A DNA stretch of 26,803 nucleotides from a virus, in the IMG/VR virus record IMGVR_UViG_3300033141_002166, positions 1-26,803 of that record. The stretch is one strand, 5' to 3'. Position numbers and translations under genes: made by a program. The notes below the pieces were generated by a model. The model had not been told where the DNA came from, searched no databases, and saw nothing but the letters and a program-made list of their open reading frames with translations. Positions 3,532 through 17,633 of the stretch are shown piece by piece (position 1 is the first letter of the stretch; each line of letters starts with the position of its first letter).

Positions 3532-4026
3532 ATGAACGAAGCAAAAGCGAAAGCCGCCCTGATAGACGCGCTGCGAGAGATACAGAGTATTCGATATGCA
3601 CATCAAGCTGCCGTTAAATCATGGATGACAAGTCTAGACAGGCATGAACACACAGCAAAAGCGCAAGATGCAACAATAGCTAACCTGCGTGATGAACTCA
3701 TCGAAACCAAAAAAGAATTAGCGCACAGCTTAAAATGGGATGAGGCCGAAGCAAAAGCATACGAGCTGCAATATGCCGAGATGAAATCCGCGCATGAAGA
3801 GTTAGTAGAAGTCAAAGACGAGCTTCAATCAGCGCGTGATGAGTTTGAAAGCGTAAATATGGCTTTTGCATCTGCGCTAAATCGTCTATGGGAGGACTTG
3901 CTGCCAAAAAGCTATGGCGAATGGGACTACCCAAATCAAGCCTATAGATTTATCAAAGAAGAAGTAGAAAAACTTCGCGACGAATTACGCGAACTAAAAC
4001 AAGCTGTAGACGAAGGAGAACTGTAG
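3532..4026 (+). CDS. Coiled-coil protein, unknown function
   Basis: The 164-residue product starts at ATG 3532 behind GAGGAGG. Almost the whole chain is a charged helix with heptad-like spacing: IANLRDELIETKKELAHSLK, then VEVKDELQSARDEFE, then a C-terminal VEKLRDELRELKQAVD. A short non-helical insert around residues 123-140 (WEDLLPKSYGEWDYPNQAY) interrupts it. The stop codon overlaps the GTG start of the adenine methyltransferase (TAGTG), so the two are translationally coupled. No enzymatic motif is visible. It may be a structural or partner protein within the operon. Confidence 0.7.
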   Translation: MNEAKAKAALIDALREIQSIRYAHQAAVKSWMTSLDRHEHTAKAQDATIANLRDELIETKKELAHSLKWDEAEAKAYELQYAEMKSAHEELVEVKDELQSARDEFESVNMAFASALNRLWEDLLPKSYGEWDYPNQAYRFIKEEVEKLRDELRELKQAVDEGEL

Positions 4027-4751
4027 TGGATCAACAACACAGTCTCAACGCACATCAATTAATCAACCAGAGCAGCGGCAACGTAGAGTGGTACACGCCG
4101 CTGGACATCATCGAAGCCGTTAAGAAAGTATTCGGAGGAGAGATCGATCTAGATCCAGCCACCAGCCTGGAGGCAAACGCGAGGATCGGCGCGAGGCAGG
4201 CATATCTAGAGCCAGGCTGCCTAGAAGTACCCATCGAGTTAACCGCCAACAATCCAGCCGTAAGGTTCTACCGGCAGTATCGAGAGCAAGACGGACTGAG
4301 CAAAGAGTGGGAAGGGCGAGTCTGGTTAAACCCTCCATTCGGCCAGGCTGAGAGCGCCTGCAAGCTAGATGCAGACGGCAACTTCCGTTGTTACAAGAAA
4401 AAGTGTCAGAAGCGAGACTATCACATCGTACAAGATCGGCCGGGCATGATAGATTGGGCTGAGAAGATGGAACGAGAATATCTAATAGGGCGGGTTAAAG
4501 AAGGGCTGATGATCACCTTCGCGAGTGAGAGCACCGTATGGGGGAAAGTCCTATGCAGATATCCCAGGTGGAAACCAGATCAGCGAATCAACTACATTGA
4601 GGCTGGGACAGACAAGCCAGCCAACGGCGTGAGCAAAGAGAGCATGGTCACGTATTTCGGGCCTGCAGTAGACAAATTTGCCAGCATCTTCATAGCGCGA
4701 TTAGGCGGAAGCGTGGATATACCGTGGCGAGCAGAGAAGAGGAGCGAATGA
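4026..4751 (+). CDS. Phage DNA N6-adenine methyltransferase (Dam-type)
   Basis: The 241-residue product begins at GTG 4026. Hallmarks of the phage DNA N6-adenine methyltransferase family are present in order: EWYTP (residues 21-25), DLDPATS (41-47) and the catalytic LNPPFG (101-106, an NPPF variant of DPPY), followed by the substrate-side helix WAEKMEREY. A Cys-containing insert (residues of about 111-130, with CKLD, CYKKKC) follows the catalytic motif and may bind zinc. The enzyme would methylate adenine in phage DNA to evade restriction. It sits mid-operon, overlapping its neighbours at both ends (TAGTG and ATGA). Target specificity cannot be read from the sequence. Confidence 0.88.
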   Translation: MDQQHSLNAHQLINQSSGNVEWYTPLDIIEAVKKVFGGEIDLDPATSLEANARIGARQAYLEPGCLEVPIELTANNPAVRFYRQYREQDGLSKEWEGRVWLNPPFGQAESACKLDADGNFRCYKKKCQKRDYHIVQDRPGMIDWAEKMEREYLIGRVKEGLMITFASESTVWGKVLCRYPRWKPDQRINYIEAGTDKPANGVSKESMVTYFGPAVDKFASIFIARLGGSVDIPWRAEKRSE

Positions 4752-6068: not shown

Positions 6069-6150
6069 ATTCAAGGTTCGGACAGGAACGGTTTGGAGAG
6101 GACAGGACTGGAAAGGCAGAGACAGGACGGGCGAGGACTGGCAAGGATTA
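6069..6150 (+). repeat. GGNNN pentamer array, block A (one module)
   Basis: After ATTCAAGG (6069-6076) the sequence runs in strict 5-base steps. From 6072 to 6146, 14 of 15 consecutive pentamers have the form NNNGG, the exception being CAGAG at 6117-6121. The block ends CAAGGATTA. The NNN triplets vary (ttc, aca, aac, ttt, aga, act and so on), so only the GG phase is conserved. It sits between the terminator and the ribosome binding site of the HNH gene. Confidence 0.85.
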
Positions 6151-6170
6151 AACATAAGCGAAGGAGAGAT

Positions 6171-6593
6171 ATGGATAGAGGAAAGGAATACGCGAGGTAC
6201 ATCGCGTCGGCAGCGTGGAACAGGAAGCGCGAAGAGCGTCGGGCAATTGATAAGAGCCGGTGCAGGACGTGCGGAGTCAGCGAAAACCTTCAGTGTCATC
6301 ATGTGACATATAAGCGATTCGGTGATGAAGATGTAGAGAGAGATTTAATAACGTTATGTGCTGAATGTCATTTCGTAATAACAGGAGTCATACGGAATCG
6401 CAGATACAGCAAAAAAAAACATCAGGTTAAGCCAACAAAGGCAAAGGAAATGAGTTATGTTGCAAGAAAAAAGTTACCAACTAAAGTCAGTTTGTCCATT
6501 ATTGATGCACAACGGGCAGTTAGCAGATCCGCTGAACGATTTCACTATCGCTATGAAAGCAGTAAGCGGGAAACGAAACAAAACGCCGGCTGA
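6171..6593 (+). CDS. HNH endonuclease
   Basis: The 140-residue product starts at ATG 6171 behind GAAGGAGAG. The upstream frame (from 6093) only reads through the GGNNN array. Zinc knuckles CRTC (31-34) and CAEC (63-66) frame the active-site core QCHHVTYKRFGDE (41-53) and DLITLCAECH (58-67), a standard HNH layout. Residues after about 80 are basic and unstructured, and residues 97-140 are encoded in DNA that also encodes the next protein. In cos-type phages an HNH protein near terminase assists packaging-site cleavage. Its place upstream of TerL fits this, but a selfish homing nuclease is possible. Confidence 0.85.
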   Translation: MDRGKEYARYIASAAWNRKREERRAIDKSRCRTCGVSENLQCHHVTYKRFGDEDVERDLITLCAECHFVITGVIRNRRYSKKKHQVKPTKAKEMSYVARKKLPTKVSLSIIDAQRAVSRSAERFHYRYESSKRETKQNAG

Positions 6594-9688: not shown

Positions 9689-11275
9689 ATGGCACGGCCG
9701 GAACTAGAAGTAGAAGATTTAGAAGAAAAAATACCCCTCATAAACGAAAGCAACAGATTATATAGCATAGGAGATCATTGGCAGGCTGGAGCTGGGTATA
9801 CAGGGCCGCGATTACCATCCGATCATCCACAGTACAGCCAGTGGATAGCAGAGATGGAAAGGATCTTCGTCAGCGAAGATGTCCTGAACGAGATTCGGAA
9901 ACGAGAGCGATGGGCCTTAACAGGGAAAGCATGGACATGGGAACTGCACGACGCCGAGAACAAACCTCTTCCAGAAACAGAAGCATTAGAACTAAAACAA
10001 ATTGTTGAGCATTGGATGGAAGAAAAGCAAGTCGTCAGCACCGTAGCTGATGCAATCGAAGCTAGTGGATGGGCCGGCGATGAAGGGCAAGACGGCCGTG
10101 GAGTCTTACGGTTCTACATACCCGAGCAGCGATTAGAAACAGGCGGAACCATCGAGGCAGAAGATTTAGGCGCCGCCATGAGCCTAATCGAACTAGAATC
10201 ACCAGATTCAGGCACTGCAGTCGTATTCGAAGATGCAGACTCCGCATACGAGAAAACCGGATTCATCTCCTGGACAGAAGAACTCGCAGGCGACGAATTT
10301 GATCGCGCCGAACTCGTTTATATAGATGAGCAAGGAAACACCGTACTAGAAAGTTTGATCGACAGCGAAAACGTCAGCAAAGGAGTCGTAGAGATTCCTC
10401 TATTGGGGCGGCTGACCATGTATCAACTAGAACGGCCGTTATTAATGACCAACAGCCAGAGAAGCCAGCAGAGATTCCTAAACCACGTATATACCGCATT
10501 TCAAGCAGCAATCATGGGCGCCGCCTGGCCAGAGGACTTCTTCTTCGGGTTACTGCCGCCAGGCCATTGGGAAGAAGCAGAAAACGGCAAAGAAACCTTC
10601 GTTCCCGATCCCATGATCCGAGGAGCCGGTCGCAGTCACTTCCTACAGCCGTCCATGGTTATAGATGATAACGACGTAGAAAAAGCTGCCATGAGTGGCG
10701 GCTTTACCAGAACGCAGCCCGTTTCCCCCAACCTATTCACAGAAGCCAGGAAAGAACTACGGAACAGCATGATCGCCTCAGCCTTTCAAGAGTATACATT
10801 GCTAACCGGCTTGGCCCAGGCCAGCGGCGAAAAACTACAACTGGCAAAAGGAGACTTTGAAGCCAGCGCCACAGACATGGCAAACGAGACGCGGCTGATG
10901 GTGCGATGGGTAATCGAAACCGTTTTATTAATGGGTCAGTTTATATTAAGCAACAGCGCCGAGCCAACCCCCTACCGAGCATTAGTCGAAGTAAGAATTG
11001 ACACAGGCGTTGTTACCACCGAGCAAAAACTACTGTTGAGCCAGCTCAGAACAGATCGATTCATCAGTCATGAAACCGCACTAGCCGAAGCAGGCTACAG
11101 CCAACCGACTGCCGAGATCCTCAAAATCATACAAGCCATGGAAAACGCAGAATTGAACGTTGATGGAGCCACCTCGCAAGGCATGGTAGACGCGACCGGA
11201 GGAGAAGAAGGAACGCAATTAAGAACCGAGAAAAACAAAGTAGAGACGCCAACAGCAAAGAACACAACCACATAA
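9689..11275 (+). CDS. Portal protein
   Basis: The product has 528 residues. Its size, its position between TerL and the scaffold gene, and the conserved-looking start (SNRLYSIGDHWQAG, then EMERIFVSEDVLNEIRKRER) fit a siphovirus portal, the dodecameric ring through which DNA enters. A long helix near the C-terminus (ASGEKLQLAKGDFEASATDM, then ETRLMVRWVIETVLLMGQF) fits the crown/stem helices. It starts at ATG 9689 behind AGGAG. The C-terminal 40 residues are hydrophilic and low in complexity. No MuF-like domain is fused. Confidence 0.8.
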   Translation: MARPELEVEDLEEKIPLINESNRLYSIGDHWQAGAGYTGPRLPSDHPQYSQWIAEMERIFVSEDVLNEIRKRERWALTGKAWTWELHDAENKPLPETEALELKQIVEHWMEEKQVVSTVADAIEASGWAGDEGQDGRGVLRFYIPEQRLETGGTIEAEDLGAAMSLIELESPDSGTAVVFEDADSAYEKTGFISWTEELAGDEFDRAELVYIDEQGNTVLESLIDSENVSKGVVEIPLLGRLTMYQLERPLLMTNSQRSQQRFLNHVYTAFQAAIMGAAWPEDFFFGLLPPGHWEEAENGKETFVPDPMIRGAGRSHFLQPSMVIDDNDVEKAAMSGGFTRTQPVSPNLFTEARKELRNSMIASAFQEYTLLTGLAQASGEKLQLAKGDFEASATDMANETRLMVRWVIETVLLMGQFILSNSAEPTPYRALVEVRIDTGVVTTEQKLLLSQLRTDRFISHETALAEAGYSQPTAEILKIIQAMENAELNVDGATSQGMVDATGGEEGTQLRTEKNKVETPTAKNTTT

Positions 11276-12513: not shown

Positions 12514-13629
12514 ATGAATCTTAACTTTGCTGATGCTTTGAAAGAACTTGGGGCCGATGCTTCATTCCTATTCGCCAATGAAGTACGACCGCCAGCCTGG
12601 TATCTATTCAATCAGTATTTACCAGAAATGAACGAGCCTGGCTATAACGTAGAAAACGGTTCAATGACCGTTCGCTCCGCGATGGCCGGCTTAGCAGGAA
12701 CCGACTCTCCCTACCCCCCGACCGGGATCACAGAGGTGAGTACCTTCATGGAAGAAGTTAGCAAACTCGCTAACTACGTCGTTCTTCCAGAACGTGCGAT
12801 CCGACGTATGCAAGCCCTCTTGCGAGGAATGGGACAGAACGATTCAATCGACTTCATCCAAAACGAAGCCCTTAACTTCCTGGATAAAGTAATCGTGCAG
12901 GCGCATATTGATGCGTTTGAATGGTTGCGAGCGCAAGCCATCACCAGTGGCGCGATCTCCTGGAGTTTCAACGACATGGAAATTGCCGTTGATTACGGCA
13001 TTCCCGCTGCCAACATTCTCACCACCCGAACAGGGACGGCCGCGTGGGATAGTACAGCATCCGGGTTCTGGGCAGACATTGCCGAATTGCAGCGAGTGTT
13101 GCACTACAATGTCAACGATTTCATCGTTCACCCGAACACCCTGACCAAAATCATCGACAACGACGTGAACAGCATTGAGCTGGTCAACTTCACCGACATG
13201 GCAAACGGAACACAGGAATACACCTTCACGCGGCTGATCGGGACAACCGAACGTCTTGATTCTGACATGCGCCGAACCATTCGTATCAAAGCGTATGGCC
13301 TGGAAGCAGAAGTTATGAATCCTGCCGGTCCAGATTCAACCCAGCTGTTACCGTTTATGCCAGAAGGAAAGATCGTCGCCATAGCAAATGCTGGGCGAAC
13401 CGGCTATCGCGTTGGCGAAGGGTCAGTTGATGATCCATACAAGAGCATGGCTCTTGGCTACACCCACATCGGTCCTACCGTCGAAGGCGGCGGCGCACCT
13501 GGTCGTTGGGCGCAGTTATTCACACCTGAAGCAATGCCTATGCAATTGCACGGCCGTGCCGTGACCAATGGCCTTCCAGTCATCGAAGTGCCGGAAAAGA
13601 TTGCAATCGCTTCTAGCGACTTAACGTAG
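12514..13629 (+). CDS. Major capsid protein (lambda gpE-like family)
   Basis: The product has 371 residues. Segments typical of the lambda gpE group are visible: a central ISWSFNDMEIAVDYGIPAAN (about 150-170), then WADIAELQRV followed by a VNDFIVHPNTL strand, with a Gly/Pro-rich C-terminus. There is no N-terminal delta domain or cleavage signal of the HK97 type. Its arginines are all CGN codons, unlike the AGA/AGG-rich neighbours, as expected for the most highly expressed virion gene. The start is ATG 12514 behind GGGAGGATAAAGG. Confidence 0.92.
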   Translation: MNLNFADALKELGADASFLFANEVRPPAWYLFNQYLPEMNEPGYNVENGSMTVRSAMAGLAGTDSPYPPTGITEVSTFMEEVSKLANYVVLPERAIRRMQALLRGMGQNDSIDFIQNEALNFLDKVIVQAHIDAFEWLRAQAITSGAISWSFNDMEIAVDYGIPAANILTTRTGTAAWDSTASGFWADIAELQRVLHYNVNDFIVHPNTLTKIIDNDVNSIELVNFTDMANGTQEYTFTRLIGTTERLDSDMRRTIRIKAYGLEAEVMNPAGPDSTQLLPFMPEGKIVAIANAGRTGYRVGEGSVDDPYKSMALGYTHIGPTVEGGGAPGRWAQLFTPEAMPMQLHGRAVTNGLPVIEVPEKIAIASSDLT

Positions 13630-15290: not shown

Positions 15291-15715
15291 TGTTGATCAA
15301 AGAAATTCGTAAAGAGATCGCAAGAGTCCTTGCGGCAGATACAGACCTTGGCGAAACAATGCAGGTCCATATCTACGATTCCTCTCAACTGCCTGGCAAG
15401 TATAACAGGGAACTTTGCGTCTACTCCGCTGGCTCCTCTCCAACCCAATACCCCGTAATCGGAAAATCATCAGGTGCGCCAGTCTATCAATATGTGCTCT
15501 ATTGGATTGTCAAATTCGACAGTGGTCAGTTAGCCGCAATGGAAGATGTCTGCGACGATGTTGAAAATGCAGTTTACCGTATTCTTGGAGAAGAAAACTA
15601 TCGCAACTCCTTGTGGAGAAAGATAGTATTCCCGAACTTTAGTTTACGGCCGTTAGCGCCAGGTGGCGTCAATAACGCGCACCCGGGCAGAGTTTTAGTA
15701 AGGATCATTACATGA
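15290..15715 (+). CDS. Probable tail terminator protein
   Basis: The product has 141 residues from ATG 15290 (TAATG overlap). An upstream in-frame ATG at 15278 would lie inside the previous gene. The pattern is an N-terminal helix (IKEIRKEIARVLA), central strands (YQYVLYWIVKF), a second helix (MEDVCDDVENAVYRIL) and a final strand (RVLVRIIT). This helix-strand-helix-strand order is typical of tail terminators that cap the tube and join it to the neck, and the position is right. Confidence 0.6.
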   Translation: MLIKEIRKEIARVLAADTDLGETMQVHIYDSSQLPGKYNRELCVYSAGSSPTQYPVIGKSSGAPVYQYVLYWIVKFDSGQLAAMEDVCDDVENAVYRILGEENYRNSLWRKIVFPNFSLRPLAPGGVNNAHPGRVLVRIIT

Positions 15716-15951
15716 CAAAAAAGAAAACGACCAAAGAGCCGCAGAGGCAGTACGTTATCCTTCAGCCAGTTCTATATAAGGCCATGATACCGGATGAGTT
15801 TGAACTTATTCAACCAGCGGCCGATCCTTATGCTGATGACGCCCCGCGCCGGCCGTTTGAACATTTAGGGAAAACAGATATAAACCGTCTACTCATGCGA
15901 AACATTATCGCAGAAGAACCGCCTACAAAGGCTACGACAGGAGATAAATAA
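15712..15951 (+). CDS. Small hypothetical protein between tail terminator and tail tube
   Basis: The 79-residue product overlaps the preceding gene (ATGA) and the next start (TAATG). It has a basic first 12 residues (TKKKTTKEPQRQ), a short beta-like stretch (YVILQPVLYKAMI) and an acidic, Pro-rich middle. It is a real gene by its double overlap and its place in the operon. No family is recognised. Small accessory proteins at this position occur in several siphoviruses. Confidence 0.65.
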   Translation: MTKKKTTKEPQRQYVILQPVLYKAMIPDEFELIQPAADPYADDAPRRPFEHLGKTDINRLLMRNIIAEEPPTKATTGDK

Positions 15952-16415
15952 TGGCCATAACAACTCAACTATATATTCCAGATCGCGGATCGGTCACAAT
16001 CAATGCGGCCGAAGAAAACGGCAGCGTCAAAACGCTTTCGTACAATGTTCCGCGTAAAAGCGAAAGAATCGTAAACAGTCTAGGCGGAAGCAAAACCGAG
16101 ACACAAGCCCGCGCAAAGGCTGGAAACTATGAAGTCGCCATGTCCGTTTTGGATGACCGATCGTTAGATGAAACCCTTGGAGTTTCGGGCCTTTTGGCGA
16201 CACTTTGGGAAGCATACGAAACAAATATCGAACTTGAAGATATGCTCGTCGTTCCAGCAGGCAGCACAACGGGCATGACCGGCTACACATTCGGCGGGAG
16301 CATACACGTCGTTTCCTGTCCTCCTCATGCGGATATGGATGCAGACACCGAAGAAGAGGGTGTCGCAGATGTCATTGTCGTGACAGAAACAATCACGCCT
16401 GCCGCAATTGCCTAG
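15951..16415 (+). CDS. Tail tube protein, copy 1
   Basis: The product has 154 residues and a mostly beta composition. Its position just before the G/GT chaperones and tape measure identifies it as the tube subunit. It is about 83% identical by eye to the next gene (128 of 154 positions), with variation concentrated at residues 16-22, 73-83 and 96-108. ATG 15951 overlaps the previous stop. The C-terminal 50 residues (MTGYTFGGSIHVVSCPPHAD onward) are nearly invariant between the copies. Confidence 0.8.
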   Translation: MAITTQLYIPDRGSVTINAAEENGSVKTLSYNVPRKSERIVNSLGGSKTETQARAKAGNYEVAMSVLDDRSLDETLGVSGLLATLWEAYETNIELEDMLVVPAGSTTGMTGYTFGGSIHVVSCPPHADMDADTEEEGVADVIVVTETITPAAIA

Positions 16416-16456
16416 TTCCGAAACGGCTTTAGCATCAATCAAAAAGGAAACAAATC

Positions 16457-16921
16457 ATGGCGATAACCACACAACTATACATACCCGACCGAGGATCAGT
16501 AAAAATCAACGGGACAGAACAAAACGGAAGCGTCAAAACGCTCTCCTACAACGTTCCACGTAAAAGCGAAAGAATCGTAAATAGTCTAGGGGGAACCAAG
16601 ACCGAAACCCAATCCCGCGCAAAGGCTGGAAACTACGAAGTAGCCATGTCCGTCCTGGATGATCGTTCCCTTCTAGAGTCGGCCGCAGCAACAGGATTGC
16701 TTAAATCCCTGTGGGAAGCCTACGAGAACAACGTTGAGCTAACCTCAATGGTTGTCATTCCAGCCGGTGTAGCAATAGGCATGACCGGCTACACATTCGG
16801 CGGAAGTATACACGTCGTTTCTTGTCCTCCTCATGCCGACATGGATGCAGACACCGAAGAAGAAGGTATCGCAGATGTCATTGTCGTGACAGAAACAGTC
16901 ACGCCTGCCGCAGTAGCATAG
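16457..16921 (+). CDS. Tail tube protein, copy 2 (tandem paralogue)
   Basis: The 154-residue product starts at ATG 16457 behind AAAAGGAAAC, 41 bases after copy 1. It is colinear with copy 1 with no gaps. Differences cluster in three short surface-like patches while the N-terminus (MAITTQLYIPDRGSV) and C-terminus are kept. Both copies keep intact frames and their own ribosome binding sites, so both are probably made. The tube may be a mixed polymer, or one copy may serve as a tip or terminator variant. Confidence 0.8.
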   Translation: MAITTQLYIPDRGSVKINGTEQNGSVKTLSYNVPRKSERIVNSLGGTKTETQSRAKAGNYEVAMSVLDDRSLLESAAATGLLKSLWEAYENNVELTSMVVIPAGVAIGMTGYTFGGSIHVVSCPPHADMDADTEEEGIADVIVVTETVTPAAVA

Positions 16922-16971
16922 CCGCGAATAGGCTACCAATAACGTATATCGTGAATATAAAGGGGAAATAG

Positions 16972-17337
16972 ATGGCGAACAAGCCGAAAGTTGTTAAAGC
17001 TTTTGTAAACGAACAAACAGTGGACATAGAAGCGGCGGGAATGAAAGGAACAGTCACCATTCCAGTTATGATGACGGATAGTGATCTGGCAACCTATCTT
17101 TCTCTCACAGAGAAAAATGTCGAGCTAATCAATAATTGGAAAGAGGATCAACCTCCTCTTCTAAGAGTGAACCTTGCATGGACTGCAAGAAAGCATTTAG
17201 TACGTGCAATAGACTTCCCAGGTGCAGCAATCGACAATTTCAGAAATGGAGACAAGCCGTTTCCAGTCCTTGTTCACGTAATTACGCCATTATTAGATCC
17301 TTTAATTGACGATGCGTTAAATCTCCCAAAGTCATGA
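16972..17337 (+). CDS. Tail assembly chaperone (gpG-like)
   Basis: The product has 121 residues. It stands directly between the tail tube genes and the overlapping T gene/tape measure, the fixed position of the lambda G analogue. Its first 45 residues are beta-like (VVKAFVNEQTVDIEAAG, MKGTVTIPVMM) and the rest helical. Three codons before its stop lies the heptamer CCCAAAG (17325-17331) in the correct phase for -1 slippage, which would extend it into the next frame. The chaperone coats the tape measure during tube polymerisation. The start is ATG 16972 behind AAAGGGGAAA. Confidence 0.8.
   Translation: MANKPKVVKAFVNEQTVDIEAAGMKGTVTIPVMMTDSDLATYLSLTEKNVELINNWKEDQPPLLRVNLAWTARKHLVRAIDFPGAAIDNFRNGDKPFPVLVHVITPLLDPLIDDALNLPKS
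17325..17331 (+). promoter_or_regulatory. Programmed -1 frameshift slippery site CCCAAAG
   Basis: It is read as C CCA AAG in the G frame (codons 17326-17328 and 17329-17331). A one-base backward slip gives CCC AAA, then GTC ATG AAG, entering the T frame. X XXY YYZ heptamers at exactly this point make the G-T fusion in lambda and many siphoviruses. No obvious stimulatory hairpin was noted just downstream. Confidence 0.75.
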
Positions 17338-17633
17338 AGCTCGTCTGGAATTGGGCAAAAGCAAAGAAAGGAACTAAACCACCCCTACATCCCATCCTTT
17401 CAATGTCCAATTGGCTGTATGACGCACAGGCGAGCCAAGCAGCAGGAAGGTACATTTTTCGCTTACCCTATCCAGGAGGCGATTGGATAGCCGAAAAAAA
17501 GAGAAACAGCTACCTACTGTATCTAATGGATATAGCTAAACAGGTAGCCGTTTTAGCATATAAGACAAGTACAGGTGAGAAATTAACCAAAGAAGAAGAG
17601 AAGCTTCTTAATCAAGTAGCCGAACATCTTTAG
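17334..17633 (+). CDS. Tail assembly chaperone T part, expressed as G-T frameshift fusion
   Basis: The frame from ATG 17334 encodes 99 residues. As in other siphoviruses it is probably made mainly as the C-terminal extension of the G protein (combined product about 16972-17633, roughly 220 residues) through CCCAAAG. ATG 17334 overlaps the G stop and has no good ribosome binding site. The sequence is Trp-, Tyr- and Lys-rich with a helical acidic end (GEKLTKEEEKLLNQVAEHL). It should recruit tube subunits to the chaperone-coated tape measure. The tape measure starts eight bases after its stop. Confidence 0.75.
   Translation: MKLVWNWAKAKKGTKPPLHPILSMSNWLYDAQASQAAGRYIFRLPYPGGDWIAEKKRNSYLLYLMDIAKQVAVLAYKTSTGEKLTKEEEKLLNQVAEHL

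Follow-up and report, generated by a model that had tools for sequence, protein, structure and literature searches.

A tandem pair of predicted tail tube genes in a virus genome and the possible assembly of a mixed tail tube

The window analysed here, i.e. the whole stretch of DNA that was studied, is a virus record of 26,803 bases. On its plus strand, the window carries two adjacent genes for predicted tail tube proteins, which are referred to as copies A and B (Table 1). Both genes start with ATG and comprise 154 codons with no internal stop. The encoded proteins can be aligned without gaps and are identical at 128 of 154 residues (83%), and the genes agree at 366 of 465 bases if the stop codon is included. 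A search of the whole window for direct repeats of at least 60 nt (seed 12) yielded two repeats, both of which derive from the A/B pair and show an offset of 506 nt. Moreover, inspection by eye revealed Shine-Dalgarno-like motifs (AGGAG and AAGGA, respectively) 7-8 nt 5' of both start codons. The first-pass annotation of this DNA had described a tandem duplication with two intact and colinear copies that share 128 of 154 residues and keep their ribosome binding sites, and the two complete ORFs, the gap-free alignment and the two motifs agree with this description. It is unlikely that the pair is an assembly artefact because 99 of the 465 bases differ between the copies and because both proteins are encoded unchanged by the contigs L001 and L002, which match the window over 12 kb with identities of 99.86 and 99.88%.

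Table 1. Positions of the tube gene pair, its subregions and the neighbouring genes in the window
Feature	Position	Strand	Basis
Major capsid protein	12514..13629	+	Mostly annotated major capsid proteins of Bacillus/Geobacillus phages, 23-27% identity
Small gene, 79 aa, immediately 5' of the tube gene; kept in L004, L005, L008, L014 and L026	15712..15951	+	
Shine-Dalgarno-like AGGAG ahead of copy A	15939..15943	+	Sequence, by eye
Copy A, predicted tail tube (major tail) protein, 154 aa	15951..16415	+	ORF, alignment with B, predicted fold
Residues 72-109 of copy A, stretch richest in differences (loop, helix, strand, loop)	16164..16277	+	
Residues 110-154 of copy A, low silent divergence from B, likely conversion tract (approximate borders)	16278..16412	+	7/41 conserved codons
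Spacer between A and B, 41 nt, with Shine-Dalgarno-like AAGGA (16444-16448), partly within repeats	16416..16456	+	Sequence
Copy B, second predicted tail tube protein, 154 aa	16457..16921	+	ORF, alignment with A, predicted fold like that of A, mostly the same matches
Residues 72-109 of copy B, counterpart stretch	16670..16783	+	
ORF in tail assembly chaperone position	16972..17337	+	Position
Second ORF in chaperone position, 4-nt overlap with 16972..17337	17334..17633	+	Position
Tape measure protein, 1117 aa	17642..20995	+	PF10145, E=7.5e-17; annotated tape measure proteins as matches

The tube gene pair is preceded by genes in neck position and the capsid gene, and it is followed by the ORFs in chaperone position and the tape measure gene. 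The same gene order was found in the relatives L004, L005, L014 and L026 and likewise in L008, the contig of which starts just 5' of the tube gene. The ORF 16972-17337, which we take to be a tail assembly chaperone gene because of its position, also gave a sub-threshold Pfam match to Phage_tube (phage tail tube protein FII; E=0.0044). The phage encoding A and B probably has a long and non-contractile tail. No match to a sheath family was obtained among the 19 window proteins that were scanned in Pfam, a weak result as Pfam also misses the tube proteins. A scan of positions 15600-17100 for promoter-like sites uncovered three sites as compared to 2.1 expected, all of them on the minus strand and none convincing. 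In the same range, six terminator-like sites were detected (2.5 expected), of which five are located on the minus strand and one within gene B. Since neither a promoter-like nor a terminator-like site is present in the spacer between the genes, A and B would be translated from a single transcript.

The assignment of A and B to the tail tube proteins is supported by gene order and by the predicted fold. Comparison of both proteins with PHROGs and Pfam gave no family at E 0.01, a 10-row profile did not match any of the PDB sequences at E 10, and a tblastn search made with copy A alone against 50,697 phage records had no match at E 0.01. The AlphaFold models of A and B, which reached mean pLDDT values of 66.6 and 66.3, respectively, with most of the residues 37-56 below 50, consist of beta-sandwich strands, a long beta2-beta3 loop (residues 33-59), a helix (residues 81-91 in A and 81-90 in B) and further strands. 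A Foldseek search of the PDB returned no match under E 0.001, and the best one was Salmonella Hcp1 (3.6e-3); among the 50 rows listed, most are titled Hcp/T6SS, contractile injection system or phage tail. Using VIA-align, the best Z values were 9.3 for A and 9.5 for B, with an Hcp2-Hcp3 heterohexamer in the top row. The tube proteins SPP1 gp17.1, lambda gpV and that of YSD1 were matched by both models at Z 7.2-7.6 and R4C by A alone (Z 7.6), and most Z values obtained here are below 8, a range in which the tool warns that a match may reflect chance or a common arrangement of structural elements. The structural matches share only about 5-19% sequence identity with A and B. Among predicted viral structures, one match under E 0.001 was found, an uncharacterised protein, and named tail tube or major tail proteins rank lower. 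The fold assignment is persuasive because a single fold family fills most of the match list. Thus, the tail tube identity proposed previously is backed by gene order and predicted fold and not by any sequence family.

The pair is not restricted to the window. In 11 virus records that were searched whole, a tube match was present in seven, with two copies in six of them (L001, L002, L003, L004, L005 and L014) and one copy in L026. A single tube copy with the same two neighbours was also found in L008, a MAG contig binned as Candidatus Fermentibacteria, of which the other 4,920 bases were left out. The records L028, L029, L030 and L032, also searched whole, contain no tube match, and only their head-side genes match when 16 window proteins are compared. 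Furthermore, no tube match was found in the examined stretches of L021, L031 and L033, which end before or soon after the capsid/neck genes. L001 and L002 are of the window's own kind, the tube proteins of L003 and L004 are identical, and those of L005 differ from them by one residue per copy. The tandem pair is thus present in three lineages (the window, L003-L005 and L014), and a single gene occupies the same place in two (L008 and L026). The window and L003-L005 lineages are close relatives, as their capsid proteins are 92-93% identical. The tube proteins of the window and L005 have 154 residues each, whereas the L014 copies comprise 152 and 151 residues and are 54% identical. In a protein tree, the six copies of the window, L004 and L005 form one clade (100/99), and the two L014 copies group weakly (62/28). 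The L014 pair may have arisen by a separate duplication or may be an old one that was never homogenised.

The differences between A and B are unevenly distributed. Of 26 differing residues, 17 are located in residues 72-109, four in residues 14-32, two in residues 33-59 and three in residues 138-154. The clustering in residues 72-109 exceeds chance expectation (Fisher p = 1.2e-6; scan/permutation p = 0.0002). The first-pass annotation had confined the differences to three patches; the clustering stands, and the confinement is only roughly right, given that nine of the 26 differences lie in the other three segments. A similar picture was obtained for the L005 pair, in which 15 of 32 differences fall into residues 72-109 (p = 0.002; scan p = 0.04). 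By contrast, the differences in the L014 pair are spread along the length, and residues 72-109 are not enriched (21 of 70; p = 0.19). Between the window and L005, residues 72-109 again vary more than any other part, harbouring 15 of 28 differences for A and 11 of 24 for B. A and B do not differ at any of the 13 residues of the N-arm, the 8 residues of strand 60-67 or the 13 residues of strand 110-122, and they differ at two of 27 positions in loop 33-59. For known tube proteins, it is described that the beta2-beta3 loop joins the rings, that the inner sheet forms the barrel and that the helix is located on the outer side (PMC8718954). If the predicted models are correct, A and B would share the ring-joining loop as well as strands 60-67 and 110-122 almost unchanged, with most of their divergence facing outward.

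Silent divergence is informative about the age of the pair. The dS value between A and B was estimated to be 0.96 (NG86), 1.8 (YN00) and 2.1 (ML), of which the codon-model ML values are unstable. A fresh duplication was rejected on account of a silent divergence of about 1-2. The pair had been called young in the first-pass annotation, a view that is contradicted by these values and by the presence of the pair in two further lineages. It rather looks like an old and maintained arrangement than a fresh accident. The two copies within a genome are more similar to each other at the DNA level (363 and 354 of 462 identical bases) than copies are between the window and L005 (332-342 of 462). At the protein level, 128 and 122 of 154 residues are identical within a genome as compared to 126-130 across genomes, and the within-genome signal thus sits in the DNA. 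The higher within-genome DNA identity therefore points either to separate duplications or to sequence exchange between the copies.

Several observations bear on this choice. In the window pair, silent changes affect 28 of 63 conserved codons in residues 1-71, 13 of 18 in residues 72-109 and only seven of 41 in residues 110-154 (chi2 p = 1.7e-4; residues 72-109 versus the rest, p = 0.003). The silent divergence of the L005 pair is even along the gene (p = 0.75). Moreover, 23 of 25 sites that agree within but not between genomes are located outside residues 72-109, whereas 13 of 17 sites with cross-genome agreement are located inside this stretch (Fisher p = 7e-6, with patch borders and clades picked after inspection of the data). 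The cross-genome sites occur in blocks (runs test p = 0.02): residues 73-96 link A with the B copy of L005, codon 75 being the exception, and residues 97-105 link A with the A copy of L005. For the DNA outside residues 72-109, the grouping of A with either the A copy (AU p = 0.0013) or the B copy of L005 (p = 0.0008) was rejected, and the within-genome grouping received modest tree support (68/57 for A with B and 86/90 for the L005 pair). The tree inferred from residues 72-109 alone resolved nothing. Because the silent divergence is uneven and because cross-genome pairing is rejected outside residues 72-109, the sequences suggest that partial gene conversion occurred between the copies outside this stretch. 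Such conversion would be visible in the window pair only, since the L005 pair does not show this unevenness. No report on gene conversion between phage tube genes was found in the literature covered, which is a partial selection with most subscription journals outside.

The other explanation assumes that a single tube gene was duplicated separately in the window lineage, in the L005 lineage and in L014, without any conversion. We consider this scenario possible but rather doubtful. It would account for the rejected cross-genome pairing outside residues 72-109, for the single clade formed by the six window, L004 and L005 copies, for the existence of single-copy relatives and for the even silent divergence of the L005 pair. 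However, the copy offset is nearly equal in the window (506 nt) and in the L005 lineage (505 nt), and residues are shared in blocks between the two lineages. Furthermore, the contrast in silent changes between the patch and the 3' end would be unexpected from one duplication date without later conversion.

On balance, we lean towards the explanation that A and B are two functional and near-interchangeable tube proteins, which derive from a tandem duplication, have been partly homogenised outside residues 72-109 and co-polymerise in one mixed tube. One ancestral tube gene would have been duplicated in tandem, an event that probably predates the separation of the window lineage from that of L005. 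Subsequently, recombination in the form of partial gene conversion, a step that is supported but not proven, may have homogenised the stretches outside residues 72-109. As the two copies hardly differ in loop 33-59 and in strands 60-67 and 110-122, both proteins, if made, could fold alike and polymerise together into a mixed tube, and recombination between the copies may keep the assembly surfaces compatible. The outer face of such a tube, which consists of loop 72-80, helix 81-91, strand 95-101 and loop 102-109, would exist in two versions. The simplest purpose of this arrangement would be the supply of more tube protein combined with tolerated surface variation. While a heteropolymeric tube composed of A and B is plausible, a more detailed version must be regarded as tentative and rather unlikely, namely a hetero-oligomeric tube of two bare isoforms that polymerise through the same surfaces, the compatibility of which is kept by recombination, and that have different outer segments, exchanged between the copies at least once. 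If this version were true, two outer surfaces of the tail would be open to selection.

The pair could also serve dosage only, with two genes providing more of a much-needed protein and the surface differences reflecting drift in a weakly constrained region. The high variability of residues 72-109 between the window and L005 fits this idea, and gene conversion would keep the remainder alike. However, L008 and L026 manage with one copy at the same place, and the L014 copies have drifted apart along their whole length, which dosage alone does not call for. Dosage as the sole explanation therefore appears unlikely to us. It should be noted that the dosage reading is compatible with a mixed tube, and the probabilities that we assign to the rival explanations do not sum to one.

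Alternatively, the copies may divide their labour by position, with one making up most of the tube and its partner forming special rings near the baseplate or the neck. Where contractile injection systems have a second tube protein, it can sit in such a special ring. That these systems can encode two tube proteins is described for Bacteroidales (PMC7394362). The occurrence of the tandem pair in three lineages would be in line with a division of labour, as would the location of the differences mostly outside the regions that are expected to build the barrel and to join the rings. Position-specific rings might, however, be expected to differ in the N-arm and the ring-joining loop, where A and B are almost the same. 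Moreover, the loop version 'LDET' is present in A of the window but in B of L005, a poor fit to roles that are fixed to a gene. Thus, we regard a division of labour as improbable.

Diversifying selection on exposed patches, as suggested by the first-pass annotation and conceivable, for instance, as escape from a host defence such as DSR2, which senses a phage tail tube protein according to two studies (PMC11263360, PMC10981675), is very unlikely despite the concentration of differences on the predicted outer face, as dN in residues 72-109 (0.45) is below a dS that is saturated and does not permit an estimate, and as two expressed copies would present two targets. Likewise, the patch differences were not taken as proof of positive selection. 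The variation is explained equally well by an outer surface under weak constraint because residues 72-109 also vary most between the window and L005.

Phages with multiple paralogous major tail genes are already known. For instance, two major tail proteins are reported for Microbacterium phage Damascus and for Gordonia cluster DJ phages (PMC11080557, PMC10652937). Microbacterium phage DizzyRudy has three annotated major tail proteins, gp17, gp19 and gp20 (286, 586 and 255 aa), which are 41-51% identical over 216-224 residues. A search with DizzyRudy gp17 hit 480 places in 243 phage records, mostly from actinobacterial hosts, and when 60 of the 243 records were taken at even intervals, 55 had at least two such places. 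Like A and B, the two or three paralogous genes of the actinophages lie near one another and upstream of a tape measure gene. However, the copies of DizzyRudy differ in length, and another gene lies between gp17 and gp19. Moreover, the tblastn search with copy A at E 0.01 revealed no sequence homology to the actinophage sets. The previous statement that two tube-like proteins usually occur as diverged or fused forms fits DizzyRudy, the one actinophage that was compared. Compared to these cases, the A/B pair stands out as bare, equal in length, adjacent and 83% identical.

Two forms of a tube protein are known from SPP1, the tail of which contains gp17.1 and gp17.1* at a ratio of 3:1, and virions with gp17.1 only are viable (PMC8718954). 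Unlike A and B, which are encoded by two complete ORFs and lack an added domain, the SPP1 forms derive from one gene, with an FN3 domain being added by translational frameshifting. A duplicated tube domain is likewise found in T5 pb6 and in Thermus phage P74-26, in which fused duplicates form rings of three chains (PMC8718954, PMC10034513), whereas A and B are separate chains. The Hcp2-Hcp3 heterohexamer of the Bacteroides fragilis T6SS (PDB 9vne, by its entry title) contains a ring in which two proteins with this fold are combined. This entry reached the highest Z value with both models (9.3 and 9.5; 96 residues; 7% identity), tied with other Hcp rows. However, it belongs to a secretion system and not to a phage tail, and the similarity is a match of fold only. 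The tubular proteins A and B that occur in short-tailed phages are not known to be related to each other and were therefore set aside as a parallel pair. The phrase 'two major tail proteins' in another report refers to neighbouring subunits, and this case was likewise discarded (PMC11445458).

The usual picture of a tail tube is that of a single protein repeated many times. A bare tube gene pair of equal length that has been kept over a long divergence with signs of recombination would thus allow to test the mixing of subunits in rings and the role of the outer surface. The A/B pair may also serve as a system for studying how phages keep duplicate structural genes compatible.

Some further observations were made. 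The bin of L008, Candidatus Fermentibacteria, is a lead to a host and no more, and the contig end (L008:1-63) contains a near-perfect inverted repeat, as judged by eye, which could be an assembly artefact. Upstream of the structural genes, the window encodes a Dam-type adenine methyltransferase (4026-4751; PF05869) and an HNH endonuclease (6093-6593; PF01844). A gene for a C5 cytosine methyltransferase seems to be interrupted: the ORF 1873-2424 spans only positions 4-164 of the 324 positions of PF00145, and the overlapping ORF 2060-2890 in another frame contains by eye a stretch resembling the C-terminal part of a C5 methyltransferase. A sequencing error, a true frameshift and a split gene are all possible. 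The tape measure proteins of L004 and L005 are 66 and 59% identical to that of the window, and the tube proteins of these two relatives are one residue per copy apart; the tape measure gene thus seems to change or to recombine faster than the tube genes. Finally, L028-L030 and L032 share the capsid protein with the window at 48-50% identity, and L028-L030 also share the gene in portal position (9689-11275). As no tube gene is recognisable in these four records, the head module seems to have had a history separate from that of the tail module.
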